The notes beneath the pieces are model-generated. The model searched no databases. It was not told where the DNA came from and saw nothing but the letters and a program-made list of their open reading frames with translations. Both the position numbers and the translations under genes were made by a program. Of a stretch of DNA of 64,000 nucleotides, positions 21,101 through 55,300 are shown one piece after another. The stretch spans positions 124,001-188,000 of the forward strand of contig JBAIAA010000654.1 of the NCBI GenBank assembly GCA_037893245.1, read 5' to 3'. This DNA is from Crossaster papposus (taxonomy: Eukaryota; Echinodermata; Asteroidea; Velatida; Solasteridae). Positions within the stretch are counted from its first letter, which is position 1; each line of letters begins with the position of its first letter.

Positions 21101-24100
21101 GGCAAGACAACATGAGGAGACGAACAATTGATCAAGAGTGATAATTACAAAGATTTACAAAACAAGTAAATAAAAATGGCATTGATCAATCTTTACAATT
21201 GCTTTGATTGCTTTGAACATGATATAAATAATGTTAATATAATAAAATGCGACTATACAAGTATGCGCTATTATAATAAATGTGCTCAAAAACAAGATTG
21301 TCTGGGTGGTAATTATCTTTGCATAATTATCTTTGCACAAAAACATTGTCCAAAAATAGTTTTAATGCATTTAAAATGGCATTTTAGCCAAAGGCTTACA
21401 GGATGCGACATTATTTGTCAAGATTACAAAACCAGACAGGCAGACACAATTCTTGGAAGAGAATACCGTAAATATGTTTATATAGAATACAGGTGATTGG
21501 TTCGTGTAAATGTCAACGACCGATGAACACAAATCCTGGACTCTTATTGGCCGAGGCAAGAGCAGCGTCATGGAAACCCATGATGCGTTTGTTGTTTTTT
21601 AGATCGTGACATTTTAGGTATACTTCTTTTTATCTCGGTTTCAAAAACAAATGAATGTATACCTGAGGGAAGGCTGGAGTATCAAATAATGAACCGTTTT
21701 TTGTTTGTTATTTTGTTGTTTTTTTGGCCTTATTTTGTTGCTTCCGACTAGTTTTTGGCCCAAGACCCTTGAGGTTTGTTGGCGCCCACACGCCAAATTC
21801 GCTAAAATTTGTGTCTTTTGCAAATCTCGGCTTTGTACCCTGTGTGTTGTGGCGTCCGCATGCATAGTTTACTAATTGCAGCTGGATCCACACTCGCGCC
21901 AGAGCCGGTGTTTGACAAACGTGCATGATTTTAAGGGGTCTTGGATAAGTTGGCAAGCAATTCTTAACCGTAGACAAGTCAATGCTCCTAAATACATCCA
22001 TAAAAATTGATGCATTTATCAAATATTCAAAGTAATTGCTTTACATTTGTGTACAATTGAGATCAGACAAAAAGTACCGCAAAAGAGCTTTCCATGAAGT
22101 CACAAAGTCAAGTGTGAACATTTAAGTACGTCAATTCTGATCGGCAATTCTTGTCTTGAATAATCACCGGAAATGACGGTACTTGTACATGCACCATTTA
22201 TTCTTCTAAATTCAGAGAAAAACTGACAACAGGGCAATTAGCCAGATGTTTGTTGTCCATTGTGGGGCATTATGAAGGCCATTACCCCTTCGCTATGTCT
22301 AAGCCATCGGCTACCTAGAATGACGGAAACATTAATTTGACTGTAATGCATTATAATGTGCTGGATGCAGCCGCTGTTTGTGCTGCTAGTACACAACTGG
22401 ATATAAGCAGGCAAGAGATTGTTAAATTAGAAAAAAGTCTAAGAATTGATAGAATGACTAAAAGATGCATATCTTTGTGTACAAATGACGTCACTCTAAG
22501 ATTCGAAAAAGTTTGATTTCAGACAAAAGTCTGAACAATCTCATGCCTGTTTGCCTGCTCAAGGACAACCAACTGGAACTATAAAACCAGAAACAAAAGA
22601 GAAAATAGCAAGACTTCCGAAGACTTCAATGTTTTCAGTTTCTAATGGCAAACAAGAAAACTACGGTAATCAGGAAGTCAGCTGATCAGAGAAAGTGTCC
22701 AGACAGTAAACGCATTTTACAACTCTTCAAAACCACACATGACTCTAGGAGCAGCTGACGATAAGTCACACATTAGACTTTGTAACCGCCTAACCACAAA
22801 GTCTTTTTGAAGGAACGTACAATGTACGTGAGAGTTACTCATCAATGACATTAGAATGGGAAACAGAAATGAAACCACAACTGTGTCCTTCTTAGGGCTG
22901 GCGATATTTATTTTTTCCCGCGATATCGCCGATATGGCGATAAAATCGGCAAAAAATTAAGGCATTAAAAAAATGTTGCCAAAGGTACGTTTAAACAGCT
23001 TTCGAACACCCCTCAAGCTTTCTGTAAGTACCGCCATGATCGTCCATCAAACACGTTGTCTTTTAATTTTTTTAAATTTCCTATGTGTGCGAACCGGTAA
23101 TGAAGCAACCATCTGAGGTCATCAAACTTTTTCAGCAAACAGTCATAGCACTTAGGCCTTGTGCTGTATATACATAATACATAACGTTCTCGGCTGATCA
23201 GCGCGGAACTCTGCAGGTGCCGGTATTAAATCCGGTCTCTTTGTCATAATGTGGCACTCAGTCTCGCACGTGTTTGCGAGTATTGGTTACACTAAGACAT
23301 GCGCGATATGCTTAAACAAGTCTGTTTATTGAGTACAAATTGCACACCACACCGGTAACCGGGTCATCAGGCCACGCGCAGTCAGCTCAGGACCGACCAT
23401 GCACGCGTTGTGTTGGTAAATGCCATGCCACACCACGCATGACCGGCTAGGTTTATCATTCATAAAAACCAAAGGCGCATTGGCACAATGACTGCCGGTT
23501 TCCTGCTTTCAGACCTATACGTGGATACACGTTTAATACACAAGTATCGCCGAAAATGCGAGTCACCAAAAAAAATCGCCAATTTCAAGAACGACATCGG
23601 CTATATGCCGATTTTTAGAAATGTATTAAAATGTATGCGATTTTGTCATTCTATACATTTAGGTTACACATTTTCTTACCTTTGCACTGCGGAGGATCCA
23701 TCACCGATACTGAATGCTCGTCCAGTTTGCTGAGAGACCGGCCTGGCGCTGCCTGGATGAGCAGCTCCTAGAGGTGGGTAAGGAGGTCCAGAAGAGGTAG
23801 GAGAGGCTGGGGTAGGGATCTCTAAAAGCGCAGCGATGTCAGCAGTCTTAGCTTGACGAACTCTCTGTCGACCTGACAAAGGATGAGATAAACAGATGAG
23901 ATTTGAGTTAACCGGAATATCATCGTCATGGCCCAGGGTGGGCCAGGAGAGGTAGGGGAGAGATCTTTAAAAGAGGGCAGCGATGTCGGCGGTCTTGGCT
24001 TGATGGACTCTCTGTCGACCTGACAAAGGATGAGATAAACAGATGAGATTTGAGTTAACCGGAATATCATCGTCATGGCCCAGGGTGGGCCAGGAGAGGT

Positions 24101-27100
24101 AGGGGAGAGATCTTTAAAAGAGGGCAGCGATGTCGGCGGTCTTGGCTTGATGGACTCTCTGTCGAACTGATGAGAGAAACAAGATGAGAGAAACAAGATG
24201 AGATCTAATCATAGACATCATTGTTATAGGAATTCTTCTTGACTAGCACTTGCCGCTTGCTGCTTGCTGAAAAACATAATTGTTGTTTCCAACATATGAA
24301 GAGTTTTATTGCAAAATGCAATAAATGCCATTTTCAAAACTTTTATGACATTAGGCCATTAATGTGTAGTAAATAAACTGGCTTTATTCCAAACCTTTTA
24401 AAATCCAAAGGTAAACTTTTGAAAATATGATCTGAAGTACATTTGTACCTGTAACACTATTTTCTTATTTATTTTATTTTTAATTATGTTATTTTTCAAA
24501 TTGAAACAAATTATAAATTATTTTTTGATAACATTTGCATACATCTCTTGTAGGAAAAATTGCATGGTACAAAGTGTGATTGAATTACCTTTGGTAAGTC
24601 TCTGTTTGGCTGCCATACAACGAATATGATCATCAAACTGAAACTTGGCAGCAAGTAGAGGGATAGGCTTAGCATGGGGGGAGGTGGTCATCCGCTTGTG
24701 AATGGTGACGTGAAGTGAACGACTGTCATCTTTGTCCCCTGTCACCTCTAAGTCCTAAAAGGACAATGACATATGACACATTAAATGACATGAATGGTAG
24801 TTAATACTGTACAAAGAGTTAGTTCCAAAAACCTAATATATTCATTTAAAAAAAATTACAATTTGGGCAGTTATCAAAGTTTAAAGAAAATTCTACACTT
24901 TGCGTCATCCACTGGTTCAGCCAACTATCGCTTCTGTCAAAAACCCATGAAAGAGAAATCGGAAACAAGAGTCACGTTTGTTGGTTCACCCTGCCCTAGT
25001 TTCAGGTAATACTTACAAAGACCGTTGTCAAGTTGGTTCTAGCTATTCATTGTTATAACTTATATCTTATATCTGTTCTACATTTTGTTATATTTTATTA
25101 TTGCCGTTTTCAAAAATGTTTTTGCTAAATTACAAATATAGTTTACTAAAACGACTCTAAATTAAAAAAATTTTGTTAAGTAAAACCAATTTTCAAGGTT
25201 TATCAAATCAACAGAATAAACAATTTATTTTACTTTAAATTCTTGCAAATAACTTTGAGCATTTGAAGGAAGTTGTACTGTAATAACATTCTTTTGGATG
25301 AAAGTGTGTACATTTTGTAAAAATATTGAAGATGAATTTTACTGTTTTATAACCTGCCCTCAATATAATGAAAGTAGATCTCAACTATTTAGTAGTATAA
25401 ATGATATTGAGCCAATATTTGTTAATATGTCCGTGTATAATAAATGTATTTATTTATCTTATGGCGTCTGACTTTCCTAGAAACCATTAGCCCAGGTGTC
25501 GTGTTTCTTTCAAAGCCGGATCACAAAAACAGACAAATCCTCTCACTCAAGGTTTTTGTGGTTTCATATCGAGTACGATGCATTTATGAGCATTTGGTAA
25601 AAACCAAGAATCCAAATAGAGTGCATTCAAAGGACACCAGGTCAAATCAAGTTTGTCATTGTTCCTCAAAGTTTGTGTCATATCTCTGACTGGATGTTAA
25701 ACCAATCCCCCACCAAATCGGGTGGGGAAGAAATTGCATAATCCCTTTATACTTTTCCTTTCATCTAAGTCCATCTACGTATTAAGCGACACATGGAATT
25801 AAGGAATGTCTTTACGTCATCGGATCACTTCTTACTGCAACCTATTAATTCCAAGAAAGATGCACAGATGTGCACAATCTGCCTATCAACATGATATGAC
25901 TGCATGCAACCAGGGTTCGTTTTACAAAAAAAAAGTTGCATGCACTGGTGCATGTAGACCAAAAAACCTACATGCACCAGCAAAAAGTTACATGCACCAT
26001 TAATTTTGCAAACTCGTACTCCGCGGCCGCCGTTGCAAAAATCACAATTCACTGATAGCGCGTGCAACACGTGGGTGCGACAGCGAGTGTAGTCTTGGTG
26101 CAAGACGTTCTTGTTGAGTTAGTAAAACCATAAAACCATAGGGCCTATGTACTCAACACTATACGCGTCGCGACTATTCCACCGATAGAGGGCGTATTCT
26201 GGAAGCCGCGAATCTGTTCTGACCCGATGTGTGGTGGTTATCTGGAAGTTTCCCAACAGCGCCCTCTATTGTTTGATAGTCGTTAGGCGCAGGGGCGCTA
26301 AATCGCGATAGTTGCGTGATAATGAACAACAACGTCTTGCACCAAGACTACAGCGAGTGCTGAGCAAATATTGCCTAGAGGGGTAGCCACAATTGAGTCA
26401 ATTACGATAACCCCTGTATGACTTCACTCCCGTAAACAACGTGTACGTACGTACGAATATGGAGGGCTTTCCCGATTACAAAAATAGCACTAGCGCTAGA
26501 ACATGACGCGACGCGACGGCGTGCGCAAGTTTACTGATTCTGAATCTGCTGCAAGGAATAAATTATGGATTTATGAAATAAATAACACGTTCGTACATTA
26601 TCTGGTAAAGTATTCAACCAACTTTATTCGTATTCTCACTGGGGCTGATAAATATATGTCTGAAATGAGTACTTTGGTGGTCAAAAAGCTACATGCACGG
26701 CGTGCACGTGGGGCAGAAAAGTTACGTGCACAAACAAAAATCTACATGCACTGGTGCATGCGTGCACCCGGGTAAATCGAACCCTGCATGCAACATAAAG
26801 TAGTGCAGATACCTTATACATCCATATCCGCGTTCGCATTGGACTTAATATTGTCAAATGTTACGGTACGTGATTGTCAAAGTTCACGGTGTTAAATCCT
26901 CCGCTAGAAGCTTGGGCCTATAGATCTTACGGTTGCGGAGGGTAAAATGGACAATTTGACATTGTTACCGCCTGTCCGCATTGGATTTAATTTGGTTAAG
27001 TTCTCTGTAGGTTTTACCAAAAAAAGTCCAATGCGAACGCGGCTTTTGTCTTATCTGCAAAACGAACCTAACTGTGCCCTACATGCGGAGATCAATCATG

Positions 27101-30100
27101 GGATATTTCAGTCTATTTTCAGGTTTTATTTTGTTTCATACCAAATTCGTATTTTTCTAGCATGTCTGAGCATTTTTGGAAGTATATAATCTGAATTTTG
27201 TTTGATTTACTCTTTTTACACGAGTCAGATGTCAACATCATTTTCAAATTATTAAATTAATTTGTAATATTCCTGAGTTCCCTTAAATTGTAAATGTTTA
27301 GGATTTTGAATTGAAATGTGAAATTTGGTCTTGATTTGGTGTCTTCCTTACCTGTAGTGGGCCCACAAGTCAGAGCCCAATTGCATGGCTCTGCTAACCA
27401 CAGAATCTCAAGCTTATGATCACCATTTTGGGCTAACCGCGCTAAGCAGAACAATTCTGTGCTAACCCTGTAAGCACAGAATCCTTAGTTATGGGATGTA
27501 CGCATGCGCAGATGCCAAAATTCCTCACTAACGCATAAAATACGCTTACAGTAACAGTACAGTAAGCAGGGATTTTTTGCTAACGATAAGCAGAGCCCAA
27601 CAAATTGGGCCCTGACCACATTTATGCCCCCCCCCCCCCCTCCCATCTAGAATCAGTTGATGTTTGTCAATCACTAGGAATCTTTCTTACCTGTAGCGGC
27701 CCCACAAATCTGGCCACGCCCCAGCCAAGCTTCTTGCTATCAGGCTCAACCAGAATCAGTTGATGGTTGTCAATCACTAGAAATCGCCGCACCCTTTGAG
27801 GGCTGGAGAAAACCAAACAGACAAACCAGAGAGCTCAATGAGGGACTGTGACAAGTCTAAATCTAAATAACATACATGTACTGGATAGTAAAGCCTTGGG
27901 GGGGGGGGGGGGGTCCCTCTGTCTCATATCTTGTTTCAAATGATGAGATAGGGAGCTGAACCAATCGTGTCGTTAGTGGGCGCACTGTGTGAAAAGAATA
28001 CGCGACGAGCATAATCCAATATTGAATACAGTCGTCTTGGGCAAAGACTAATACGACAACTGCATTAAGGAATGCATCAGAATCATACAAACACTGATGT
28101 CAGATTGAACAGGGATAGGAACAAATTGAGTTTGTTTTTGTGCTGATACATGCCAACTAGAGGCTGGTCGGGCTATTGTACAATTCAGTGATCAATGTTT
28201 GGAACATCGGATATGTTCTTACCTCTTGTCCTTCATGAGGACTGTGCAGGCAATTAAGTCGCTGTTATCTAAAATTTTATAAAACAAAGACAATAAAAAG
28301 AAAGGCCAGTTACTCATCTGTTGACTTGAAGTTGAACCATCCTATTCTGAATCAGATATGTGAGATATTCTGGCAAAATGAGACGGAACTAAACAGAGAT
28401 TGACATGACACTTTGCAGTAGAAAGAAAGCGAATAAAATTCTTCTTAATACAGTACTGTTTGTTACACTTAATAATCGGAAATAGTTATAGTTATAACAG
28501 TTGCATTTACTGAGAAAATGGCCTTAAAATTGTGGGTTTTGTTGTAGTAAACATGGAAGATGCTATTTTTAATTTTGTTTAAACTCTTTTTTCCAAGATT
28601 TGTATACCTTTTCTTCAACATGGGCAGTAGACATACCGGTACAAGCACCAAAGGTTATTAGTCTTGTGATAAACAGTCACGGGATCAAACACTATACATG
28701 TACTATACCAGAGTACTACACCAGTAGCAACCAAAGTACTATACCCATAGCAACCCTAAACTTCTTTACAGCAGTAAATGTGGTTTGTAAAATTGCACTA
28801 ATGTACAAACCAGATCAGACAGCGAACAATCTCTGAAAGTGAACAACAGAAACTCAGACTCAGAGTTACAAGAAAACCCATGACTGAAACCATAGCTCCT
28901 TGACTGAAACCACACGGAGAAAAACAACCCACGCGGGGAAATACCAGAGGAATACAAAAAGAAAGGGTAGGGGAAAACAAATAAAAGCAACAGCAGAAAA
29001 AGGAATACAAAAGAGACAGCAAAACAGAAAATGGCAGGAGGAAAACGAACGGAATAAAACCCAAAACAGAAAGGAAAAGGGCTGAAGAGATGGTACTGTA
29101 CGTACCATGACAGATTGCAATCTAGTGAAGAAGATTGCTACTAAAATATGGCTTTATACAGATGTACATGTACGCACGCCAAACCTTTGCCTAAACCAAC
29201 AGACAAATGTGCAAATTGAAACCGAGGTTCTCAATTATTCCATTGTTAATGAGGACCATTGTTTCAATTCTCTCAACTAAAGACAGCATAGATAGAGGGC
29301 CTGGGTTCACGTCCAGTCCAGGAATGCTGGTCATCAACTCCGAAAGCCCACAGAATTCTATCTAATGGATTTTCAATGGCTATTCACACTGCAAATCTGT
29401 TCAAATATGTGTACAAAAACGAGGCTCATGTATTTACATTCACTCACTGGTTATACTTTATAGTGGTGGTTCCAACATGTAAGAAGCTGTAAGTGATGGA
29501 TTTTGATGGGTAGTGTAGTTAAGGAGATCAGCAATAATAAGCCCCCCCCCCCCTCTTTCCTAGATCAAAGCATAGCTCCATGATCAAAGTATATTGATAT
29601 AAAGCTTGAATAGAACTAGACACTGTGACATCTTGCACACAATGTAAACATAACAGCAATTGAGTTACCAATCAAGATTACGGATTCTACTTTTTTCTAT
29701 TTTTTTTAAACGCTTTAACAAAGTGTGTACTGTACAGGCTGAATTTAGTATAAAATTCAAGGAAAACTTTCATGTTCCAGCAAGTTGGGTTTTAATGAGA
29801 ACGAGTAATCCCATTCAGCTTTTACTGGAATTTTTTTTCTGGGAAATGTAGGGCTTTCAATTGTAATGAAATCCATTGTGTGTTGATTGAAAATAGGCTG
29901 AATGGGTGTCTTTCTTTGATAAGAAAACGCATTTGAGATTATACACATGTAATAAATATTCAAGTGTCGAGTTAAAACTTGTAGTTGGCCCTATTTCAGA
30001 CGCACCACAGCAATCTAGAGGGGAATTGTCAGGTCAATGAATCAGACAGGCTGACTTGAAACTGTTTACAAATGTGTCACTAAATGCAAACAAAGTGAGG

Positions 30101-33100
30101 ACTTGGTAAATTGGGGGCAGTATTTGAAGAAGAAAAAACAAAACAAAATTTTTTCTTTTTTTCTTTAAGGTTTCTTGAAAATAAAAGACACACCAGGTGC
30201 CATAATTTCACAGGATGCTTGGGACTAGTATTTACTTACAGTCAAAGGTACCAGTAATTTGGTAAATTTGGTTTTTAGATGTTGGCAAATGTTGTACATC
30301 TTTCAGAACTACCGCTAACACTGTTTATGCTACTTTCTTGTTAATTCTTAAAAATGTTGAATACACTAAAAATAACTTCTGATTGTAGTGAAATTGTTCA
30401 AGGTGAGCAAAATTATTTCTCACTTTTCCAGGGAAACTATGAGAAATACATGCAGTGTACCCTGTAAAATTGGATCTAATTCCCAACCTAAATAATGCCA
30501 CATTTCCACTGACCTGGGCATTTCTTGAAACCTACTGTACACACTAAACAGAATTATATATAAATAGAATCGCTTGTAATTTCTCAGAGAATTTCACACA
30601 ATGTGGGGAATCTCCACGGCATACAATACAACTGAGCATTGACACAATTCAATTGTTTGTCTGGACAAAGAGTAAAACCAATGCATTTCCAAGAGTTCTA
30701 GGTTAGTTTGTTTTTAATCCATCCTATCGCAATATTGGAGGGGGAGGGGAGAGGGGATATTTCTCATGGACATAAATCCCAAATACAGTAATCGCATAAA
30801 GTGATTCCTCTCCTCTTCCAGAATTAAAAGAAACTTATGCTTGTTTTAGTTTTTGACAGACATTTCAAGGGGGGGGGGGGGGGGGGGCAGGGGAGGCCGA
30901 GGGGATATTTTTCATGGACATAAATCCCAAATACAGTAATCAGGTATAGTGCTTCCCTTCCAATTCCCTTCCAGAATAAAAAGAAATGAATGCTTGTTTT
31001 GTTTGAAGGAAGTCTGCACCAATAAGATGTAAATTCATCGGAGTTTTTAACACTTCACTGACAGAATGTTATAACTGTACAAGGACTTGGAAGGAAACAA
31101 ATGGTAGGAGGTCTCCAAAGTTTTATTTTATCAATAAGCATTTTAATCATGCCCCCCCCCCAAAAAAAAAAAATTAATAAAATATGTTTCCATGTACACA
31201 TTCTTTTAGTACATGACGTTATTGAGCCATTCCCTAGGATTTGTGTGCTTAAAGTACACACAATGTGGGGAATCTCAACTGTATACAATACAACTTAGCA
31301 TTGACACAATTCAATTGTTTGTCTGGACAAAGAGTAAAACCAATGCATTTCCAAGAGTTCTAGGTAGGTTGGTTGGTTTTTAATCCATTCTATCGCAATA
31401 TTGCCAACAAAAAGCGTTTCTAAAAGAACTATGCTTGTTTTGTTTTGTGGCAGACATTTCAGGGAGGGGGGGGGGGGTATTTCTCATGAACATAAATCCC
31501 AAATACAGTAATCAGGTATAGTGCTTCCCCTTCCAATTCCTTCTAGAATAACAAGAAATTAATGCTTGTTTGAAGGATGTCTGCACCAATGAAATGTAAA
31601 TTTATTGGAGTTTTCAATGCTTCACTGACAAGGATTTGGAAGGAAACAAATGGTAGGATGTCTCCAAAGTTTTATTTTATCAATAAGCATTTTAATCATG
31701 CCCCCCAAAAAATAATTTAAAAAAATTAAATATGTTTACATGTACACATTCTTTTAGTACATGACGTTAGCGAGCCATTCCCTAGGATTTGTGTGCTTAA
31801 AGTACAAACTCTCTAAACTCAAATTCAGAAAATTCTTTTGACCTAAAATGTTTAACATTACCCTAATTTGTTTTTGATTTTCCAAGAAAAGAATATTATT
31901 GATGGCAAAATAAAATCCAATATCCTGGTTTCCAAGAATTTGAAGGTAAAACTGGCAATGCTTAATTGCATTAGAACAAAACAAAAAACTCACCCCCCAA
32001 AAAAATTATATAAAATAAAAATAAATCACAAATGTTTTTAAAAACACGACAACGATTGCACAATGATAGATTCCCCTAAATACGCAATCGCCTACTGGTA
32101 GAGCCATTTCTGTTCTAAAATTAGCAAGGTCCAATATTCAAGAGCAAACAAAGTTCAAATCTGTTGTTGTATTGCACGACAGGTGTTACCACATTACACA
32201 TCCATCTTTCCAGGGTTTTGTGCACGTAGCAATTAGCAACCACAAAGCTTGTGTTTTTGAAAAGTTTCAAAGTTCAAAGAAAACTGTTTGGGATTTGTGG
32301 ATAAGTATTCGGGGAAATACAGTACATTACAATTGAAAGTTAAATTAGCAAATAGGAATGGGAAACTTTGTAAAAATAATTCTGTGAAGAGGTACGACAA
32401 TGTGAAAGGAAGTACATGTACATGTTATACATGTGTACATTTGTGTTCCTACTTGGTGAAAAGATGTGAATAAAGTTTCCCATTTTGTGAATGAAAATGA
32501 ATTCCCTGGAAAGACAAAATGTGTGAAAAATATGTTGATTCCCCGGTCAACTTTTAATGACAATGTACTGTTTTAATGTATTTGTGTGGCACATGTCCAC
32601 AATGTGTAATTGTATATTATGACAACAATTTATCATTCATGACACACACATGCCAGCATTGCCACTTTCCTGAACAAAAGATGCCATTTCAAAGCTGGGA
32701 AGAAACAAAGTACTCAAGGTCAATTGGCAACAGATGATACATCGGAGACCAGGTGACAAGTAAAATATACCACCAATGCAAAAACATTACTAATACTGCC
32801 AAGAATTGAGGGAATTTCCCCATTGCTCAGTTATTCATCGGAGAAATTCCTAACATGAAAAGAGAGCACTGAATAACAATCGAATTGTGGGATAATTTTT
32901 GTTCTTGAAATGTCCTTGTTCCTTGTTGGTTTCAATGCCAGGGACTGCCCCTATAACTCCATAATAATGAATCACTGTCTGATCATAGGGCCTTTTCGAA
33001 TCCCTGGCTTCGTCTTTGTCTTTGGCTTAAGGCGATTTTTGACTCCCAATTGCAACATCTCCAGCCACATTCTGACGCCTGTTGTACTTCAGAAACATTC

Positions 33101-36100
33101 ACTCGATTGATGTGAACCCAAAAGTTAGACTATTTCAACTTTCTTCCATTTCTATTTGCTTCTCAGTATTTCGGAATTCGGAGGCGAAGCCAAAGCCAAA
33201 GACGAAGCAACGGTTTTGAAAAGGCCCCTAGTCTACTAACAATGCAGGTTTATTCCATCCTTGGAAAGATCTCGGCAACTTAAATTAAATACATTATTTA
33301 AATTCCGGCAAAAATACCCAGTACAACATTTCTGATTATCAACGTTGTGCAGGTGATTAGACTTGTCGTCGACATTGGCTTATTTTATATCGATACAAAA
33401 AAAGAGGAAAAAATAAACTCTAAAAACTGACTCCAGCGGGATTTGAACATGCAACCTTTAGAATGTGGTATATTAGGTAAAAAGAGTAGGCTAAATACTT
33501 CATGTTGGAGCTGGGCTCCTCTTCGATAGAAACAAATTGCAGACGTTCAACCCCCCCCCCCCCCCCCCCCCCCCTAAAAGTCTTTGGTTCTTGTGGTTAT
33601 AAGAACATAATGCTTTTTTAAATAGCAAGGATATAGTTAAACGTTAGTACAGGATATCGGGTGATAACATCTTCCGATATATACACGTGGCATTTGATTT
33701 CAATGCGGTTGCACTGTGCAGGAAAAGATAAAAACCCAGGAGCTAAAGCTGGCACCAGGGACATACGTCTGCACAGCTAGAATTTAGAGATAGAATTCAC
33801 GAGGAAACAACGGAAAAATAAATAACAATAGACAATATCAATTGGCATTTTGTCTGATGTGGGACTACAAACTGAGACCACACCCCCCTGTGGGTGGAGA
33901 AGGGGGCCACCAATTGGCTATGCCACAGACAATTTACCTGAAGAAACCCGTAGAGAGAAGACAATGAGAAGAAATTACAGTTTTAAAGGTGGGAGGAAAA
34001 CCCCAGAAGAATATTCTGGGTAAAACCAACGGAATCAGGTAGGGACGTAAAACCCACGAAATCAGGTTGGGACGTAAAACCCACGAAATCAGGTTGGGAC
34101 GTAAAACCCACGAAATCAGGTTGGGACGTAAAACCCACGGAATCAGGTAGGGACGTAAAACCCACGGAATCAGGTAGGGACGTAAAACCCACGGAATCAG
34201 GTAGGAACTGAAAACCCAATCTATGTGTGTACCAGGACAGGAATCAAACCCAGGGCCACAGCGGTGAAAGGCAAGGAAAGAGCCAATGCGCTAACCTGAC
34301 TCGCCTTATCGTGTGTGGAGTTTGTGCTATACAATTAACTAGAATGCTAGAAGGAAGCTGTTTGGTAGTTACTTACTGAGATCCAGTTTGTCGGATGCTT
34401 TGACTATCTGGTCTTGGCTGGCTAGGGGTAGCTTGGTCTCCGTCTCATGGCAGAGGGTATGCGACAGGTTGCGTAGAAGGAAGAACATACGGATAGCCTG
34501 TAGGAGTAGACATATCAAAGTATAGCGTTAGAGCGGACATTGACGGACATTGGGTCGTATTAATCAAAACTAGTTGAGGGTGAGCGACAGGTTGCGTAGA
34601 AGGAAGAACATACGGATAGCCTGTAGGAGTAGACATATCAAAGTATAGCATTAGAGCAGACATTGACGGACATTGGGTCGTATTAATCAAAACCAGCGTT
34701 TGTGTTTACTACCAATAATTAAGCATTTACTAGCGTCTGTATGAATAAAAATTCCACAATTCTATCAAATCATTTGGGTGGAAGTGTGGATGTCGTGCAG
34801 TTGAGTAACTATTCCTGACATCGACCTGGTTCTGAGTTACTGGCTAATTGGGACCATCTTTTGATCAATTTTAAACTGGACAATATTACAAATTACAGGG
34901 TGGTAAAAACAATTAAGCTGTTAAATTTGTTACAATTCCACCATCTTCTGTAAAATGTGGGTTTCAACTTACCCTTCTGGTTCTCTCTAATTCTCCAGAG
35001 GGGAGACGCTTGATAAAATCAATACCAGTGAGTGGTGTTCCAGTGGGAGGAAGCAGTATAGATTCATCCATCATCAAGTATTCCACATTTAGGGGTCTCG
35101 TCTGAAAAAATCAATAGAACAAAAATACAACTAGAAACAATTCAATTTGGACATTAACAAATTAAATTCACTAAAGAATGCCATGCTTTGGTACAGAGAT
35201 TATTAAAAAAAAGTAAATTTATTTTTGTTAAATCTGCAATTGTCACAATTATTACCCCTGTTCATCAAGCCATGAGACCAAATTTCTTAAGATCAGCGCA
35301 ATTTGATCTGTACCTTCACAGGTACCCATTTGTACTCCAAAGTGTCTTGCCCAAGAACACAAGCACTATGTTTAGCGTCGGGTTTTCGATCCATGTACTA
35401 CAGCACACAAGTCAAACACAGTTGCACTCCACATAAATTAAATATGTCTTTAGGTTTGTTCAACCGGAGTTTGCGAGGAATATCGGTTGCTTTTCAGTGA
35501 GTTACGTGAGGAATCTCAGTGCGTTAATACTCACCGTCATGCTCTGATACTCATCATCAAACATGTCCAGAAAAAGCTCATCGCCTCGGTAGAAGTTTCG
35601 TAGCAGCAACATACTCTCTTCTTTGGCTCCCTAGGAAATATAGAAACCAACCAACTCGTACATTTATTGATTTGATTCAACAATGTTCAGTTTTTGTGTA
35701 TGTTGATTATGCCTAGTTTATAAAACGATGAGACAACTAACTAATGAGTCTTATGCACAGCTGGCTAAAACCTGTTGACAACCATGACTAACCTCAACGC
35801 TTGCTAGATGCTTGTCCTGAAGGAAACAGCGATTGGTCTCCAATGAATACACAAGCTGCTTGAGGAGGAGACTAGACATCTCCAAGGTTACTGGACGGAT
35901 GCGACTATTAAACTGGCAACTCTGTCCCATGACAGCAACGAGACAGTTCACCAAGACTCTACTGTAACTAGTCTTGTCCTGAAACAGATTGGCAAATTAC
36001 TCAAATAGTAACAGATTGTAAAATTACTCAAATAGTAACAGATTGGCAAATTACTCAAATAGTAACAGATTGGCAAATTACTCAAATAGTAACAGATTGG

Positions 36101-39100
36101 CAAATTACTCAAATAGTAACAGATTGTAAAATTACTCAAATAGTAACAGATTGTAAAATTACTCAAATAGTAACAGATTGGCAAATTACTCAAATAGTAA
36201 CAGATTGGCAAATTACTCAAATAGTAACAGATTGGCAAATTACTCAAATAGTAACAGATTGGCAAATTACTCAAATAGTAACAGATTGTAAAATTACTCA
36301 AATAGTAACAGATTGGCAAATTACTCAAATAGTAACAGATTGGCAAATTACTCAAATAGTAACAGATTGGCAAATTACTCAAATAGTAACAGATTGTAAA
36401 ATTACTCAAATAGTAACAGATTGTAAAATTACTCAAATAGTAACAGATTGGCAAATTACTCAAATAGTAACAGATTGGCAAATTACTCAAATAGTAACAG
36501 ATTGGCAAATTACTCAAATAGTAACAGATTGTAAAATTACTCAAATAGTAACAGATTGTAAAATTACTCAAATAGTAACAGATTGGCAAATTACTCAAAT
36601 AGTAACAGATTGGCAAATTACTCAAATAGTAACAGATTGGCAAATTACTCAAATAGTAACAGATTGTAAAATTACTCAAATAGTAACAGATTGGCAAATT
36701 ACTCAAATAGTAACAGATTGGCAAATTACTCAAATAGTAACAGATTGGCAAATTACTCAAATAGTAACAGATTGTAAAATTACTCAAATAGTAACAGATT
36801 GTAAAATTACTCAAATAGTAACAGATTGGCAAATTACTCAAATAGTAACAGATTGGCAAATTACTCAAATAGTAACAGATTGGCAAATTACTCAAATAGT
36901 AACAGATTTTAAAATTACTCAAATAGTAACAGATTGGCAAATTACTCAAATAGTAACAGTTCAGCAGAAAACTACATTGGAATATTCACTGTAATCAGAT
37001 CACTGACAATTATTTACTTCATATTTAGTCTGATTTTCATTATTCTGCTATTATGTGTTTGCAAGAATGATCAAATAAAGCACAAGTATATTTGAAAATT
37101 TGTAATATAAAAATTGCTGTATCCTCTCCGAGTGATCACTGATGGTTATTTTCGAGGTTTGCTAGTATCGTGACTTTGGGTGTGATCCCTGGCTACATGG
37201 CAATCATGGGTTTGTGGCTTCTGACTAGTGCCCCCTGAACGAGGACACTGACAAACGTTGAGCTACCAACACAGGGCTAAATAGCTCAATTGATAGAGCA
37301 CCGGAACGGCAACCAGAGGTTGCAGATTCAAACCCCACTCTAGGCAATTTCTTTTAATTTTAATTGTTAGTTTCTGCTATGTATTTATTAATTTGTATAT
37401 TTATTTCTCACCTGTGATCTGCTTGTTAAGCACACACTGACCAACAGATCTTGTTTGATGCCTGCAATGAGACATAATTATCACATCTTATGAATAGTTT
37501 GATTGTTGTATCTGTGTATATCAGATTCAAACCAACCAACCAGCCAACCAACCAACCAGCCAGCCAGCCAGCCAGCCCTGGCTATCTCGGTTGATTTAGT
37601 GATAAGACGCTGGCTTTCAATCTGACCCACAGGAAAGAGTAGGAGAAAAGGAGGATAAACATTTTCAAAAAAGCAGGACAAAAGTAGTATTTTGAGGGAC
37701 AAAATCAGGATTGTATCCTGACAAGTAAGACATTTGCGGGGTTTCAAGAGTAGTTTTTGTTGATACTCGCCAAATAGAAGCAAGGCAACAAAACTAGGAA
37801 TAAGTAGGTAAAGTATGAGCAAGGTAAGAAAACTAGGAAAAAGTAGGAAAAGTAGGAGCAAGGAAAGAAAATTCTAAAAAATCAGAAAAGTAGGAACATT
37901 TGAAAGCCTGCCGACTTGCATTGATTGATAACTAGATTACAACTCAGTCACCGTCGCCATCATAATTATTATCATTTGTATTAGACAACATAATTCAATA
38001 AAAAGATGCAGCATCAGTTATGCAGCTGCAGCAATCTCATCACACACATACCTTCATTAGATCCCATGGCATAAAGTAAACACAGTGATATGAGTGTTCG
38101 GTAGTCACCGGTACTAACATCTAATGCATCAATGACGGCTTGCAGGTACGGCCTGAAAATATCACCAACATCAAAAGGCACAAACTTGTCAATTCCATTT
38201 TAACCACACTCCCTAGTTTCAATTGTGAATGAGTTGGGATCCGAAGGTGGTGAAGTCTACTTTTTACAGTCTAAAATCTTTTGAGCGCCTTTTTTTAACA
38301 CCAATTGGACCAATTGTCAAACCTGTATTAGGGATCCAATACTTAACATGTTTACTACAAGCCGGAATAAAAGGTCACGTGAATTTACGCACACTAGATA
38401 AAATGAAGATCCTTAGTTATTCAAACTCTAAATTCCGGTCTTTCACGGTTGATTTTCAAAGATTAAATCTAATAATCTTGAATTGCTTGTAATTTGATAC
38501 ATGATGATGACATCATGGTATCTGAGTAATATACACCAGTTCAGTATGAGTTCACCTGAGTGGTATCACCTGAAAATTTGGTTTGTAACCCAAGGTGTTT
38601 TCCCAAGGAAAATTGTTCATGCTAAGCAATTTTTGGGTGCTTAGCAGCTCCATGACAGCAGAGTTGTGTCTTGACACACCTTCTAGACAACTGTAGCTCT
38701 GACTGCTGAGTCTCGTACACTTCCGATGTCTTCTCCTCATCTGTACAATTCCTCCCTGTCTTAGACTTAATCTCATCAATGCTGGGTGTGGTCACGGTCT
38801 TCTCCCCAGGAGCTGAAATAAGAAACAAAAGATCAAAACACGTGACAATTAGACAACTGAGAATTGTCTGTATAATTCCTCCCTGTCTTAGACTTAATCT
38901 CATCAATGCTGGGTGTGGTCACGGTCTTCTCCCCAGGAGCTGAAATAAGAAACAAAAGATCAAAACACGTGACATTAGACAACCGCGCCTCTCCAATGTC
39001 TAGCCTCCTGTCCCATTCATCGTGTCTTTTACCAGACCAAGATGTAAAGTAACACACTCTACTCCTTACCTTGCATCTGATCCTGAGAAACTCCTCCCTC

Positions 39101-42100
39101 CTTCCGCGCCTCTCCAATGTCTAACCTCCTGTCTCGTTCATCGTGTCTTTTACCAGACCAAGATGTTAAGTAACACACTCTACTCCTTACCTTGCATCTG
39201 ATCCTGAGAAACTCCTCCCTCCTTCCTCGCCTCTCCAATGTCTAGCCTCCTGTCCCATTCATCGTGTCTTTTACCAGACTAAGATGTAAAGTAACACACT
39301 CTACTCCTTACCTAGCATCTGATCCTGAGAAACTCCTCCCTCCTTCCTCGCCTCTCCAATGTCTAGCCTCCTGTCCCATTCATCGTGTCTTTTACCAGAC
39401 TAAGATGTAAAGTAACACACTCTACTCCTTACCTTGCATCTGATCCTGAGAAACTCCTCCCTCCTTCCGCGCCTCTCCAATGTCTAACCTCCTGTCTCGT
39501 TCATCGTGTCTTTTACCAGACCAAGATGTAAAGTAACACACTCTACTTCTTACCTTGCATCTGATCCTGAGGAACTCCTCCATCCTTCCTCGCCTCTCCA
39601 ATGTCTAACCTCCCGCCCTGTTCATGCGTCTCTGAGTCATCAGCAAAGAACCCTCCTTCCCCCTCTACTTCATCAGTCGGCGAGTCCACATTGCGATAGT
39701 TGGGTCGTTTCCTAGGCTGCGGGGTGCTTCCACTCTCTCTGTTACTCTCCAGAGAGCGTTCTAAGGACTCTTGGGGTTTGACAAAGCCTCGGTACTGCAC
39801 CTGAGTACCAAAATAAAACATTTTGTTTAGATGGAAGGCATGTTTGGGCACATGCTGCACACGTTGGTACAGACTAGGTGAGTTAGTCTTGCATACGCAC
39901 TGTGGACCTCCGAACAATATAGGTCCACACGATGCGGGAAGAGGTTACGGTTTGTGGACTTGCACACGTCCACAATCCGTTTTTCAGTTTCCGAAAAAGA
40001 GCGCTAGAGGAAAAACGGGTTAGGGTTATATATAGAAAAGATAGAAGGGACAGCTGAGAGGCCCATAATCCAAATTTGAGGGTAAATTTGTTTTGGGGAA
40101 GCGAGAAAAATGAGTATTTAGTCAAAGTTTGTTAACTACACGAAGACAAAGGAATGTCCACAGTGCGTATGTAAGGTAAAGCTGGGTGAGTGAGCATTTT
40201 GGTTACCCTATTTGTCAATGAAGCCGGGGGTGTGTGTGTAGTACCCCAGAGTGAGCCTGATTCCAACTCAAAAATGGCTGCTAATTTAGTTCACCAAATT
40301 AGTTTACCAGGTATCCAGAATCCATTTAATGGCAGAGCATTTGGAAGAAAATATTGTTTAGCAAATGTCATGCACCAGGGCAAGAAAATCCTACCTGTTC
40401 AATACCGCTGATATCTGTGGGTTGCTGGGCAACAAACGCTTCGTTGCCATGGAAAATAATTCCGGCAAGGTTGGAGACAAGTGGTGGATGATCCAGAATG
40501 AGAAACACCTGATCAGTAACCAAGGAAAAGTGCATAATTAGGAGAGAAATTTCATAATTAGGAGGGAAAACTGCATATTTAGGAGGGGAAAATACATAAT
40601 TAGAAACAAAAATGCATATTTAGGAGGGAAACTGCATAATATCTTTGTTAGTTTTTTCACTCTATTCCCTTGAATCCTTCTTTGTGTCGTTTTACCTTTT
40701 GTCTTTGTGTCAAGATAATCTTGTTAAGATCAATAATATGAGGGCAATTTCATTTTCATTTAATTTATTGGTAATTTTAGAAACTGTACTGTACATCTAT
40801 TCTATATTTGTACTGTACCCGCATCTGTATCACGTAGTCTAGACAAGGTCCTCAACTGTTATTATTCCCTAAATAAACTAGTGTTGTCCCAGGACTTGTG
40901 AGACAACATTCACATGTTTACTTGAGTGGGACTCAAACCCAAACCTCTTGCTTACTAGAACAGACGGCTTACCACTCGACCACCGAGCTAGCCAGGTCTT
41001 CGAGTGGTAGGACGGGCATAACCCCCATATCATATTTACATCGCTTCAATCCCAAGTCCATTTTATAAATAGTACATTTTTTTTCTTGGGATATTACTTC
41101 AAGAGGCTGACAGAAGCTTGTTGAGACTTTACCTGAGACAGCAGAAAGAGGGATACCACAGAGCCGATGTGTGGAGGATCCTCCTGTCAGGAAAAAAAAG
41201 AAACAAACAATAAATCCTCACGAGTTAAATGTCATTGCGGAATCCATTACGTTAAATAAAAAAAAGTAAAATTAAGCGAATTCGACCAGACTAGATCAAG
41301 AACAAGCTCCAGAAAAGAACCAAAGTGGAATCCCATGGGCCATTGGTTACGGTGTTTGACTCATTTGGCTGAAAAAGATCACGACCGCGGCCGTTCAAGA
41401 AGATACTTACAGCTACTCCAAATGATCGTTCTTTTGTCAGCGAGTCAACGTAGAGTGGTATCAGAAGTCGATTCAGAAGATGATCCGTCAAGACATCATT
41501 TAGTTGCTCAATCCTTAGGTTTAAGATGTCATTGACATAGTGAAGATGATCTAAATGTTCAGCTACAAGGGATGCCAAGCGATTCCGACTCTGATGGCTG
41601 ACAAACAAAAGAAAGGAATTTGTTCAATGTAAATCGTCTTCTTATCATCTCTCAAGATCACATTTCTTGGAGCAAGAAATCTCCCCCCCTCCAAAAAAAA
41701 AGAAAAAAAAAGAAAAAAGAAGACACCATTATTTTGAAGACGTCCTTACTCAATATCGTTCCTGACACAGCTATCCAACTCCAAAACGTGTTTGCCAACG
41801 AACCAAACCAGGTTGGAGAAGTACGGCACCGCTGTCTTATTTCTGATGTACATCAACATTGCATTGTCATTCACTGAAACAACAAGACAAGAATAGCTTC
41901 CTAAGATCTGTAATCATTCACTGAAACAGTAAGACAAGTATAGCTTCCTCAGATCTTTAATGGTAGTGCCTTGTGAGTGTACAGTGATCACATGACCAGA
42001 TTCGTCTTTATCCTCCAATCATGTCCAAGTTCTCACCTTTGTACACATTCAGCGTTAGTGTCCGGACGGCTATTCGTACCATGCTCTCTGGATGGTTGAA

Positions 42101-48556: not shown

Positions 48557-48562
48557 AATAAA
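48557..48562 (+). terminator. Probable MRPL12 polyadenylation signal
   Basis: AATAAA, 452 bp after the stop codon and the best plus-strand signal before PRKDC. The cleavage site is not proven. Confidence 0.5.
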
Positions 48563-49199: not shown

Positions 49200-49212
49200 T
49201 TTCCCCGCGAAA
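49200..49212 (+). promoter_or_regulatory. E2F-like site just upstream of the PRKDC start
   Basis: TTTCCCCGCGAAA, a near-palindromic E2F/DP-type motif 18 bp before the ATG. The position suits a TATA-less promoter. The match is by eye only. Confidence 0.35.
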
Positions 49213-49229
49213 CGCACTGAAATGTGGAG

Positions 49230-49377
49230 ATGGCGGCCGCCGATTTGCCGGGGAAATTGAGCGAATTGAACGGGCTGATTTCGGCACAGAGCAGCCCACA
49301 TGCCGCAGAGAAGGCTCAAGATCTAGTGGTTGACCTTGGTCATCTATGTCTTCGTCAATTGTCTGAGAATGAATTGG
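49230..49377 (+). CDS. PRKDC: PRKDC exon 1
   Basis: 148 nt, codons 1-49 plus one base. [18 protein letters not shown]...; donor GTCAGT. The N-terminus is poorly conserved in the family, so the start is chosen by frame, GC-rich context and the E2F-like motif. Confidence 0.88.
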
Positions 49378-52300
49378 GTCAGTATGTCACTATCAAGTAT
49401 CATGTTGTTGGACGATCCGGGGGGAGGGGCGGGGTAGGAAACCAAAGATCGTAGATTGCCGGACGGTGATCGCGAAAAAACCCAAAAAACAACGGAACAA
49501 CTGCCCGATGCCGGTTGAAAACGAACACCGTTTTTCTTGCTTTTTTCTTTGCATCCATGATTGTAAACCTTCGGACGGGTCAGTAAACGATATTTAATAT
49601 AAAATACACCCCTCCCCCAAAAAAAAAATTAATACAAAATATCTACCCATTTCTGATAATTCAAGCAATTACCGTACCAATGGTGTATTCTACCTGCCTC
49701 AAACTACGAAATATGCCACCTTCGGACGTTATAGATTGAGATTTTAGGTGATACCACTACTGCCGGTACCAACTAATTACAATGAAAATTGATGGTGACA
49801 TTTTTTTATTTTTTTCGAAGAACTCTGATTGCGTATGAACTTTATTCTCATCATAGCCCAAGTCCGGCTAAACTACTTCAATTTTTGTATATTTTGTCCC
49901 TTACAGCTTATTGCTGCTCAGATCTATTCAACAAGGACAATGGCATCTTGGTGTTTCTCAACAAAGCTATCCCCAAAGATGAGGTAAGAAGCTTGGATCC
50001 AAATTCAAAACCTGCTTAAGAATGTTGCAATATGACGCAGTTTTTTTCTTCATATAGACAGAATCCCAAAGAAGGTCAAACATCTTTGAATTCACTATTC
50101 TTCGTCCACTGTGTTCAGTTCAAGGGAAGCAAAGAGCAACTGTTGGAGTTTCTTCATGCCTTCCTGGTCAAGGCTGGATCTCGTCTTCTGGCTCGCACCG
50201 TGGAGATCAAAAAGATCTGTATCTCGGCTTTCATGAGGGACAAATCGGCCAAAGTTAAGACCAAGACATTTCCTGTATTGATAGAGGTAGGTAGAAAATA
50301 CCAAAGGTTGACGAGTAACAAGTTGAAATGATGACTTTTATGTTCTACTTGTCTGTATGACAGACTTGTTTAGGTGGTTATTGTGCAGCAAATGACACTA
50401 AATGCTGCCCAGAGTAGTTGACCCAGCCAGACGAGCAGCACAGACTAAACATGTACGCTTTGTAGAACATTTACATAATAACACAGTGCTAGGTGAACTA
50501 AATTGAACTAAAATGTGTAAATAGTTCACTCGGTTAAATATGAGCAAGTTAAATGGGATCACCACCTATATTGGGTCATTTGCGTTATTTGCATTCAAAT
50601 GATGTCAATCTTTGATAAATCACACCTTTGAAACTTTGGCAACCCTACCCCAAAAATTCTGAGCATACTATGCGTTAGCTTAAAATGTCTGTGTTGAGCT
50701 GCCAATATTCCCAAGATTAGGTTTCATTCCTCATGTTAATTTCAATCTCTACTGCCAAGGCAGCGTAACCTCGCTCGTCAGAAACTTGCTGTCTGTATTA
50801 TAGGAATAAATTCCGCTTCATCCTTGGGCAAAGAATGACATTTTCTGTTAAAAGGCGTGTATTTGAAAATGTCTGCAGGAAATCTTTGCTTGTCTTAAAG
50901 AAAAATGGGCACTTACACGACCATTTCTTTTATATTGTGTGACATTTTTAGTTGGACACTTTTAATTACACAGTTGTTGCAACGTTCTGCATCTGCGCAG
51001 ATGGAGGCAGATCTTGATATCCCAAGAATGATTGAGCAGTACTTTGAGCAACTCATGCAGCCCTCTAAGCTATCACAGACAGGTAAACTAGTAACTCATG
51101 CAGCCCTCTAAGCTAACACAGACAGGTAAACTAGTAACTCATGCAGCCCTCTAAGCTAACACAGACAGGTAAACTAGTAACTCATGCAGCCCTCTAAAAT
51201 ATCACAGACAGGTAAACTAGTAACTCATGCAGCCCTCTAAGCTATCACAGACAGGTAAACTAGTAACTCATGCAGCACTCTGAGCTATCAACGACAGGTA
51301 AACTAGTAACTCGTGCCGCCCTCTAAAATATCACAGACAGGTAAACTAGTAACTCATGCAGCCCTCTACGCTATCACAGACAGGTAAACTAGTAACTCAT
51401 GCAGCCCTCTAAGCTAAGACAGACAGGTAAACTAGTAACTCATGCAGCCCTCTAAGCTAAGACAGACAGGTAAACTAGTAACTCATGCAGCCCTCTAAGC
51501 TATCACAGACAGGTAAACTAGTAACTCATGCAGCCCTCTAAGCTATCACAGACAGGTAAACTAGTAACTCATGCAGCCCTCTAAGCTATCACAGACAGGT
51601 AAACTAGTAACTCGTGCCGCTCTCTGAGCCAACACAGACAGGTAAACTAGTAACTCATGCAGCCCTCTAAACTATCACAGACAGGTAAACTAGTAACTCA
51701 TGCAGCCCTCTAAGCTATCACAGACAGGTAAACTAGTAACTCATGCAGCCCTCTAAGCTAACACAGACAGGTAAACTAGTAACTCATGCAGCCCTCTAAG
51801 CTATCACAGACAGGTAAACTAGTAACTCATGCAGCCCTCTAAGCTATCACAGACAGGTAAACTAGTAACTCATGCAGCCCTCTAAGCTATCACAGACAGG
51901 TAAACTAGTAACTCATGCAGCCCTCTAAACTATCACAGACAGGTAAACTAGTAACTCATGCAGCCCTCTAAGCTATCACAGACAGGTAAACTAGTAACTC
52001 ATGCAGCCCTCTGAGCTATCACAGACAGGTAAACTAGTAACTCATGCAGCCCTCTAAGCTATCACAGACAGGTAAACTAGTAACTCATGCAGCCCTCTAA
52101 GCTATCACAGACAGGTAAACTAGTAACTCATGCAGCCCTCTAAGCTATCACAGACAGGTAAACTAGTAACTCGTGCCGCTCTCTGAGCCAACACAGACAG
52201 GTAAACTAGTAACTCATGCAGCCCTCTAAACTAACACAGACAGGTAAACTAGTAACTCATGCAGCCCTCTAAGCTATCACAGACAGGTAAACTAGTAACT

Positions 52301-55300
52301 CATGCAGCCCTCTAAGCTAAGACAGACAGGTAAACTAGTAACTCATGCAGCCCTCTAAGCTAAGACAGACAGGTAAACTAGTAACTCGTGCAGCCCTCTG
52401 AGCCAACACAGACAGGTAAACTAGTAACTCATGCAGCCCTCTAAGCTATCACAGACAGGTAAACTAGTAACTCATGCAGCCCTCTGAGCCAACACAGACA
52501 GGTAAACTAGTAACTCATGCAGCCCTCTAAGCTAACACAGACAGGTAAACTAGTAACTCATGCAGCCCTCTAAAATAACACAGACAGGTAAACTAGTAAC
52601 TCATGCAGCCCTCTAAGCTAACACAGACAGGTAAACTAGTAACTCATGCAGCCCTCTAAGCTAAGACAGACAGGTAAACTAGTAACTCATGCAGCCCTCT
52701 AAGCTAACACAGACAGGTAAACTAGTAACTCATGCAGCCCTCTAAACTAACACAGACAGGTAAACTAGTAACTCATGCAGCCCTCTAAGCTAACACAGAC
52801 AGGTAAACTAGTAACTCATGCAGCCCTCTAAGCTAACACAGACAGGTAAACTAGTAACTCATGCAGCCCTCTAAGCTATCACAGACAGGTAAACTAGTAA
52901 CTCATGCAGCCCTCTAAGCTATCACAGACAGGTAAACTAGTAACTCATGCAGCCCTCTAAGCTATCACAGACAGGTAAACTAGTAACTCAATCAATTTTT
53001 GTTCATCATTTTACAGTCAAGCAAGGTATCTATGGTTTGTTAGGCGTTCTTGCTGAAGTTTACCCTGTCTTGATGTCTGGATATTCTGAGAGGCTACTTA
53101 ACGTCTACATTGCAACCCTTAACCAGCAGGTAAATCTCCAATTAAATAAACAATTAAAAGGAAATGTCTTTGCACGCTTTCTGTAGGTAAGGGGTTAACA
53201 GTGTCACGCAGGAGTCATGTTCAATTATTCCTATGGGGTTTTTTTTTGGTTTTTTTGCTGCTACTTTTCCTATAAAAAATTCTAAAAATGTAATCTCATT
53301 AACTTCAAAATGTGAATTCTCATTAACTTTGAAAAATGAACAAACCCTGAACACCGAATAAATGTGATGACTTTCTTGTGTCGTTTGCTATTCAGATGAC
53401 GTCTAAGACCAGAAAGCCAGAAATGACAGTCATCGCCGGTTGTCTTACCGGCTTGGGTCATTACTTGGTCAACTTCACTCAGTCTGTGGAAGAAGGTCAG
53501 TTGTTTATTGACTCCTATGCTCATCTAGTTTGTCTTAGCCGTAGTCAGTTGCCTGTATGTACTGACAGCTGTTGTCTGACAGCTTGCGAGAAAAAAATCA
53601 CAAGCTTGCGCGGGTAAGACTCGAACCCACGGCCTGCTTACTATAGTGGAGAGATATGTTGTCACTTTCTTGTCACTTGACAACTGAGGTTGGCAGAGGT
53701 TGGTTTACTGGTTTCAAATATAGAAGTGGTTGCTTTAACCCTAACCCCCTTTGCCTTACTTTGGGCTAAAGAACTGCGTACTACAGAATACTACTTAGTA
53801 TTTTCTAGCATTGGGTTTCTCTGTGACCGATGCTTGGGTGTGTACTGACAGAGTACAGGTACTGCCAACTACAAAATACTAATAGTAGCAATACAGGTCA
53901 GTAATACTTACCTGGCAAAAAATGCAGTAGTCCAACCTTGACCCATTGTGCCCCAAGTGACAATTTTTGCTGGAGAGTCTACACAGCATACATGGGCAAT
54001 GCACACTCAGCAAGCAGAGGTACCCAATGCTAAAAAGTACTACGAGTGCAATAAGGGGTGAAGTACCCAATACTAAAAATTACTACAGGCATTGCACAAA
54101 AGTCAGTGAGAGTACTGCATACTACTTTTTACTACTAGTAGTAAAAAGTAGCATTAGGTAGGGTTAGGGTTAAGCTATCTATAGGATGAAGGAGGTTATG
54201 GGTTCGAGTCCCACGCAGGTAAGCTTTGGAAGTTCTCGGACAATGCATGTTTACCATGTTAAAACAAAAATCTTGAACTTACTACAGGGGCCAAGCATTC
54301 CAAGGATATCTACCGATTTGCCCGCATGGCCATTGATCCCAATGTGAACAGCACCCGTTATGATGTCGTCAAGGCGGGACTGAAAATGTTTGCTAAGCAT
54401 GCTGCTCAGTTCAGCCAGTATCTGTATAACGACCACCAGGTATGATGAATGAATATATGTGACCTGTTCCAACGAAACCCGGACAAAGTCGACTTTTTAG
54501 TTTTTCAGATTTTGCTTTTTTCAAATTCTCTAGGTTCTCAGCTTTAAAATGATGTATCATTTGCATATGTACCCCCACCATATCTTCCCTGGAATCTGGA
54601 TTTAGTGATAAAACCCTGACAACCTAATTATGAGATCAACAGCTTTGAAGTTCAGAAAAGCGTATTATTTCTATACACAAATGTTTCACAAAATTGACAA
54701 AAAAACACACTTCTGGTAGACGGATTTTGTTCAAATTTGAGGAGATTGTAGATTAATAGTGAGTGACTTAGGAAAACCTAAAACCTCAAAATGGTAAAAT
54801 CCATCCCGAAATGACTTCAGGAGTACATTGTGACAAAACATATTGTGCGACTTTGTCCGGGTTTCGTTGGAACAGGTCACATATGGTCTGACGTAGGTTG
54901 TATTTTACAGAATTATGAGTAATCTCAAATACTAAATGGCTAGGGTTTAAAGGTAGTATATACCATTTCCAAAAACAATTATTATGAAATACCTGGCAAT
55001 AACCCACGTGGTCGTCCAAAGGTGGAGCGACTACATCAACAACGACCTGAAACTCCTACAGATTATGCCAACCCGGCATTGAACAGAGTAGAGTCGAGGG
55101 GAAGCTACATGTATCTGAATAAGAAGACATGATCATCATGAAGTCCAACCCTCGTGTAGTCGGAGAAAAACGAACTATGTAACAGGGACAGGAAAAAAGC
55201 AGACCCTAATTTATAGAAGACCAAGATTGAATACATTGGCTTTGGTTTGAATTCAGGGATATATGAGTTTGTCATTTGTATTTTGTGACATGATTCCTAC

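Follow-up and report, generated by a model that had tools for sequence, protein, structure and literature searches.

The window analysed here is a stretch of 64,000 bp from a contig of 597 kb, in an assembly of 1.02 Gb. It carries two genes in head-to-head arrangement: CLEC16A runs on the minus strand, and PRKDC (DNA-PKcs), of which the 5' part is included, on the plus strand. This report concerns the tandem arrays found at the exon edges of both. The arrays are tandem duplications of a stretch of about 40-190 bp that starts in an exon and ends in the adjoining intron, with the splice junction copied, and they form long arrays of whole units. An initial annotation had described seven such duplications in the two genes, and all seven proved real. 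Six were retrieved with Tandem Repeats Finder (TRF) and the seventh, at CLEC16A exon 20, with self-BLAST only; all seven were read by eye, and each unit crosses a junction. The two genes are unrelated, as had been noted, though six of the seven cases fall in CLEC16A (6/22 exons, compared with 1/19 for PRKDC in the window; Fisher P = 0.10).

The joined exon frame of CLEC16A contains no stop over 878 codons, and that of PRKDC is open through exon 18 when the end of exon 8 and the start of exon 18 are adjusted. Pfam recognized CLEC16A_C (6e-203) and FPL (2e-55) in the former and DNA-PKcs_N (2e-153) in the latter. CLEC16A exons beyond exon 22 were not placed. The window gene models comprise 41 exons and 80 junctions in place of the 49 coding exons first claimed; the seven affected junctions stood. 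Out-of-sample sequence, 100 kb on each side of the window (264 kb with the window itself), was fetched after the pattern was known. In it 69 further PRKDC exons were placed by combining two spliced alignments with tblastn matches and inspection by eye. A kinase stretch from this PRKDC continuation found DNA-PKcs as its best PDB match (E 4.5e-62). Ab initio exon prediction shared a boundary with 37 of the 69 exons despite having been trained on them; this was considered too weak and the prediction was not used.

Among the 110 placed exons there are 16 junction arrays, seven in the window (Table 1) and nine in the PRKDC continuation, divided equally between donors and acceptors (eight each). Their periods run from 43 to 184 and their exon overlap from 7 to 161 bases. 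The extra copies lie on the intron side in all 16, which extends to the continuation what had been described for the window, and the description of separate duplications that straddle junctions with the GT or AG kept also holds. A splice-site matrix scored most copied sites near the real ones; two were weaker, namely the farthest exon 22 copy (4.6 vs 6.0) and a copy at exon 11 (5.7 vs 7.1).

The largest array, at the PRKDC exon 4 donor, occupies nearly the whole of the 1934-bp intron 4, and all 45 of its donors read CAG/GTAAAC. The array is bounded on either side by the 6-base repeat AACTCA, which would fit an origin by slippage or unequal exchange. In the PRKDC continuation, 25 copies of a 75-bp unit lie over an acceptor with the AG intact in 25/25. 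CLEC16A intron 11 is built entirely from duplicates of its two end regions, since the exon 11 and exon 12 arrays meet at 38983. At exon 20 the duplicate has diverged; its unit, initially put at about 105 bp or more, measures about 103 bp. Its exon part directly follows the real donor, and, as a correction to the first description, the copy is split by an insertion of about 236 bp (27352-27648). Because of this insertion inside the copy, a strong donor copy, CAG/GTAAGG at 27351, lies 339 bases downstream of the real donor at 27690. The ends of the insertion resemble inverted repeats by eye. Also by eye, exon 22 and its intronic copies (23799-24020) seem to differ mostly in the third bases of codons, as would be the case if an older version of the exon had been preserved in the copies.

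Table 1. Junction arrays, near-junction arrays and genes placed in the 64,000-bp window
Feature	Position	Strand	Unit and remarks
CLEC16A exon 22 acceptor array	23799..24204	-	147 bp x2.5; real AG 23873, copies 24020, 24167
CLEC16A exon 20 donor duplicate, diverged	27341..27785	-	about 103 bp; exon part 27649-27682, offset 103
CLEC16A exon 18 acceptor array	34453..34696	-	123 bp x2; real AG 34498, copy 34621
CLEC16A exon 12 acceptor array	38740..38983	-	127 bp x1.9; real AG 38813, copy 38940
CLEC16A exon 11 donor array	38983..39633	-	121 bp x5.4; real GT 39553, copies 39432, 39311, 39190, 39069
CLEC16A exon 7 acceptor array	41867..41961	-	47 bp x2, 7 exon bases per unit; real AG 41874, copy 41921
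PRKDC exon 4 donor minisatellite	51047..52990	+	43 bp x45; unit of 33 exon and 10 intron bases
27-bp minisatellite	35983..36959	-	27 bp x36; ends 5 bp from CLEC16A exon 15 acceptor, junction not copied
41-bp array	40522..40640	-	41 bp x2.9; 14 bp from CLEC16A exon 10 acceptor, junction not copied
CLEC16A	45687 down to 23680	-	22 coding exons placed by spliced alignment with the human protein, boundaries refined
PRKDC (DNA-PKcs) 5' part	49230..64000	+	19 exons placed; gene runs about 40 kb past the window

We reasoned that a junction can be repeated within an array only where the initial duplication already included it. Therefore the null model placed a unit of the same length at random in the genes, counting placements inside introns or over one junction, and the unit at first duplication was taken as the right scale for counting events. 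In the window, 6/10 in-gene arrays with a TRF score of at least 140 span a junction (expected 1.4, P = 6e-4), as do 6/19 when the thresholds are relaxed to a score of at least 50 and a period of at least 10 (expected 1.7, P = 0.003). With a period of at least 43, a cut chosen post hoc, the figure is 6/6 (expected 1.1, P = 3e-5), and none of the 13 arrays among the 19 that fall below that period spans a junction (expected 0.6). Adding exon 20 and two diverged intronic repeats gave 7/9 (P = 3e-4). The excess held in the sequence fetched afterwards: in the PRKDC continuation, 9/11 arrays with a period of at least 42 and a score of at least 140 span a junction (expected 3.4, P = 5e-4). At the relaxed thresholds the count there is 9/26 (expected 4.3, P = 0.013), with none among the 15 arrays of shorter period.

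Both samples together gave 15/17 junction-spanning arrays against 4.5 expected, with a nominal P of 7e-8 that includes the post-hoc window part. Since exonic copies decay more slowly, the odds of junction placement were raised twofold and fivefold; P then became 5e-5 and 0.015. With no cut beyond TRF's own (a period of at least 10), 15/45 arrays span a junction (expected 6.0, P = 2e-4), and with a period cut of 100 it is 7/7 (P = 2e-4); the pooled excess appears at all nine period cuts combined with two score cuts (P from 2e-8 to 2e-4). The continuation alone at the cut of 100 gave 3/3, which is not significant (P = 0.07).

The excess concerns events and not bases. In the window genes, arrays cover 15% of intronic and 8% of exonic sequence, and a scan of 40-base windows with a local copy score of at least 40 marked 7 of 80 junction windows and 257 of 1316 intronic ones. 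This lack of a per-base excess arises because the arrays expand into the intron. Units are weighted towards the exon: over the 16 junction arrays the mean exon share is 0.64 compared with 0.5 (t-test and Kolmogorov-Smirnov test, P = 0.018; the share for exon 20 was estimated). No preference for the reading frame was found among the 16 periods, five of which are divisible by three. TRF reported no array wholly within any exon of CLEC16A or PRKDC, and among the 17 arrays in these genes with a period of at least 42 and a score of at least 140, only 2 lie in introns alone where about 12 were expected.

Minisatellite-like tandem duplications of exon-intron boundaries are known from lancelets under the name of mirages, and two reports describe them in Adh3, troponin C, Gb6, Gb9 and PGBD5 (PMC3087553, PMC3902484). 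The reading we favour, at a probability of roughly 60%, is that the arrays are mirage-type minisatellites produced by duplication that is biased to exon edges and filtered by selection. The exon share of 64% and the scarcity of intron-only arrays suggest that duplications start preferentially in exons or at their edges. In a first step, exons and their edges would give rise to duplications with units of this size more often than intron interiors do, through slippage, unequal exchange or break repair, perhaps sometimes at a short direct repeat. In a second step those confined to the exon would mostly be purged, whereas those crossing a junction would survive because the exon-proximal site still gives the right mRNA, which is left unchanged. 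The array may then grow into the intron, its extra GT or AG dinucleotides being decoys that are ignored or whose products are cleared by nonsense-mediated decay. What the arrays do is lengthen existing introns; no new intron was seen.

Several observations weigh against this reading. A tandem repeat of about 600-660 bp lies wholly within a CLEC16A intron (30595-31809; 80-93% identity); it exceeds the 500-bp limit of TRF and so stands outside the 17 arrays counted. In the rest of the 264 kb, outside CLEC16A and PRKDC, there are 18 arrays of the same class, and a crude codon test, itself a weak one, flagged only 2/18 of these as coding-edged compared with 8/17 in the known genes. A 10-kb piece of CLTC (clathrin heavy chain) on another contig, with 17 exon-match rows, held no array with a period of at least 42, its forced alignment being unreliable at the truncated end; nor did a 3.3-kb locus from CLTC hold such an array. 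The gene models were built on human proteins with simple GT-AG scoring, and the list of 69 PRKDC exons was assembled by hand. Array ends, hence exon shares, are uncertain by some bases (at exon 11 the unit may hold 60 or 80 exon bases), and both splice-site use and array copy numbers are deduced from the assembled sequence.

The rival that fares best, although we consider it unlikely, is that the splice junction itself and not the exon is the hot spot, through breaks at paused polymerases, R-loops or microhomology between splice signals. In its favour are four arrays that end close to a junction without reaching it, 5 and 14 bp away in the window (Table 1; neither was listed in the initial annotation) and 8 and 20 bp away in the PRKDC continuation. 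The exon weighting of the units and the wide range of their exon overlap point elsewhere, and the one array-end repeat examined, AACTCA, is not a splice signal. Another suggestion of the initial annotation, a local hot spot, was not borne out for a small one, as junction arrays are met repeatedly over about 79 kb and a further array runs into a predicted thyroglobulin-domain exon (see below); because the CLTC piece lacks arrays, there may be regional variation.

Survivorship alone, in which duplication is uniform and only the duplications at junctions are tolerated, was the other explanation offered at the outset, and we hold it to be distinctly improbable. Part of it stood, in that TRF found no exon-only arrays in the two genes. 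A nearby array with a period of 111 bp (x5; contig C654:251818-252373), part of which reads as an in-frame repeat of 37 residues, is also what would be expected of a frame-neutral survivor. The other part failed: duplications inside an intron should be equally harmless, yet intron-only arrays number 2/17 where about 12 were expected, which fits duplication biased to exon edges better than uniform duplication.

A third possibility is that the extra splice sites are themselves selected, as landing pads for splicing factors, as backup or as a brake on expression. The donor is intact in 45/45 copies of the 43-bp array and the acceptor in 25/25 copies of the 75-bp array; because divergence is so small, intact sites in every copy are unsurprising. 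More suggestive at first sight was the distribution of variation in the 43-bp array, where a stretch of 20 bases around the donor contains none of the 12 variable positions (P = 0.002; 0.011 with 10 independent events and 0.05 with 8). The 75-bp array has 11 variable positions, which lie both upstream and downstream of the AG and are by eye unclustered, so no case is made for selection on the copies. In addition, every one of 14 simulated decoy uses ran into a premature stop (9 in CLEC16A outside exon 20 and 5 of the 44 copies at PRKDC exon 4 in the window), and the frame stayed open only with the exon-proximal site in the cases tested. With a stop in each decoy use tested and no frame preference, none of the tested copies can be an alternative coding exon. 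Selection on the sites is regarded as very unlikely.

Intron gain from such duplications is barely plausible. The units do carry splice signals beside exon sequence, and a potato gene offers a precedent (PMC4974935), but they also include intron sequence that was already present, the array does not contain the partner splice site, and the frames of CLEC16A and of PRKDC to exon 18 join without an extra intron. An assembly artefact is just as hard to credit. Tandem arrays are prone to misassembly, but here the copies show patterned differences (14 unit types among the 45 copies at PRKDC exon 4), the exon 20 copy contains an insertion, the contig reaches 597 kb, and a 1.5-kb query from the locus had one full-length place among 40 of 171 candidates scored. 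A second haplotype of the locus was looked for, and none appeared among the scored candidates, the other matches being to a dispersed element.

That dispersed element is represented in the window at 42703-42825, which accounts for most of 74 matches; these are spread over many contigs and frequently occur as oppositely oriented pairs. Where no exons were placed, the window holds a minisatellite with a 21-bp unit, GTACATGTAGG, at 10658-11507 and a G-rich tract at 19060-19188. Beyond the two genes, a 124-bp array of 10 copies (contig C654:60289-61525) extends at its end into a predicted exon that encodes a thyroglobulin type-1 domain (Pfam 2e-10, above cut-off), so that a third gene probably has a junction array as well. 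A second array edge came just under the Pfam cut-off (20.1 vs 20.6 bits) and a third bore a weak likeness to CN_hydrolase (E 0.08).

The lineage of the host was read from the mitochondrion. A contig of 16,330 bp (C1841) is the mitochondrial genome, in which COX1 is readable with code 9, WLFSTNHKDIGTLY, with AAA as Asn and ATA as Ile, and the tRNA-Lys anticodon is CTT. The order COX1, tRNA-Arg, ND4L, COX2 was named by eye, as were long ND1- and ND2-like frames on the opposite strand. We take code 9 to be the echinoderm code and the gene order to be of the sea-star (or brittle-star) type. COX1-family frames without stops also occur at 5208663-5210009 and 2872001-2873343 of another contig (C8), which passes 5.2 Mb and is possibly bacterial; unlike these frames, the mitochondrial contig shows 13 in-frame TGA codons. 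A lancelet origin, the first assumption in view of the mirage literature, was given up on account of the 1.02-Gb genome size and the mitochondrial code. Since the mitochondrion is echinoderm-like and probably that of a sea star, the range of mirages would extend beyond lancelets. Open-access literature searches returned no mirages outside lancelets, echinoderms included, among the matches listed.

We conclude that the arrays are a known type of structure in an unexpected lineage, and that the junction excess held in sequence fetched after the pattern was seen. So far mirages had been met in single lancelet genes and their cause is not known; a second lineage with many cases makes the question countable. 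It can now be asked why minisatellites start at exon ends and how the spliceosome picks among up to 45 equal sites, and caution may be needed with gene annotation and the mapping of short reads at exons of this kind, as both may be unreliable there. More tentatively, and with doubt outweighing belief, exon-edge-biased duplication affecting about one in seven exons of two echinoderm genes may reflect a process that is wide in invertebrate deuterostomes and a main source of intron growth there.

Comparable structures are known in several systems. In the human IFI6 (6-16) gene, a minisatellite with a unit of about 12 bp carries a donor at an exon end, and several of its donors are in use. The array at PRKDC exon 4 resembles it in having the donor site inside the repeat unit, but its unit is longer, at 43 bp, and no use of a further donor is seen. 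In the AGGT model an exonic segment containing AGGT is duplicated, and a new intron then takes its donor from one copy and its acceptor from the other (PMC3443670). The closeness to this model first proposed for the present arrays was not upheld: their units already hold a junction together with part of the intron, whose other splice site is not within the array. A potato RNA-dependent RNA polymerase gene is reported to have gained an intron from a duplicated intron-exon stretch (PMC4974935). What both share with the arrays is an intragenic tandem duplication that carries splice signals along (PMC3443670, PMC4974935); unlike the potato gene, existing introns are lengthened here and no new one is seen, although the potato case means that junction units could in principle feed intron gain.

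The closest likeness is to the mirages of lancelets. There as here, units of tens to about 160 bp lie over a 5' or 3' junction with the copies in the intron; lancelet units are given as about 150-160 bp in the globins and 10-72 bp in Adh3 (PMC3087553, PMC3902484). The two also agree in keeping many splice signals, in unit sizes that differ between genes and in turnover by whole units. The present arrays have units that span the junction, affect both 5' and 3' boundaries and vary in length from site to site. All published mirages that we found occur in cephalochordates, which we treat as a question of range and not of definition. Reverse transcription PCR in lancelets suggests that mirages leave splicing undisturbed (PMC3087553), and the authors of the globin work proposed mirages as raw material for new introns. 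An echinoderm-looking mitochondrion and a test against intron-only arrays are particular to the present case. Whereas lancelet mirages have been described gene by gene, junction arrays were found here at 16 of 110 exons in two genes, one of them with 45 copies.

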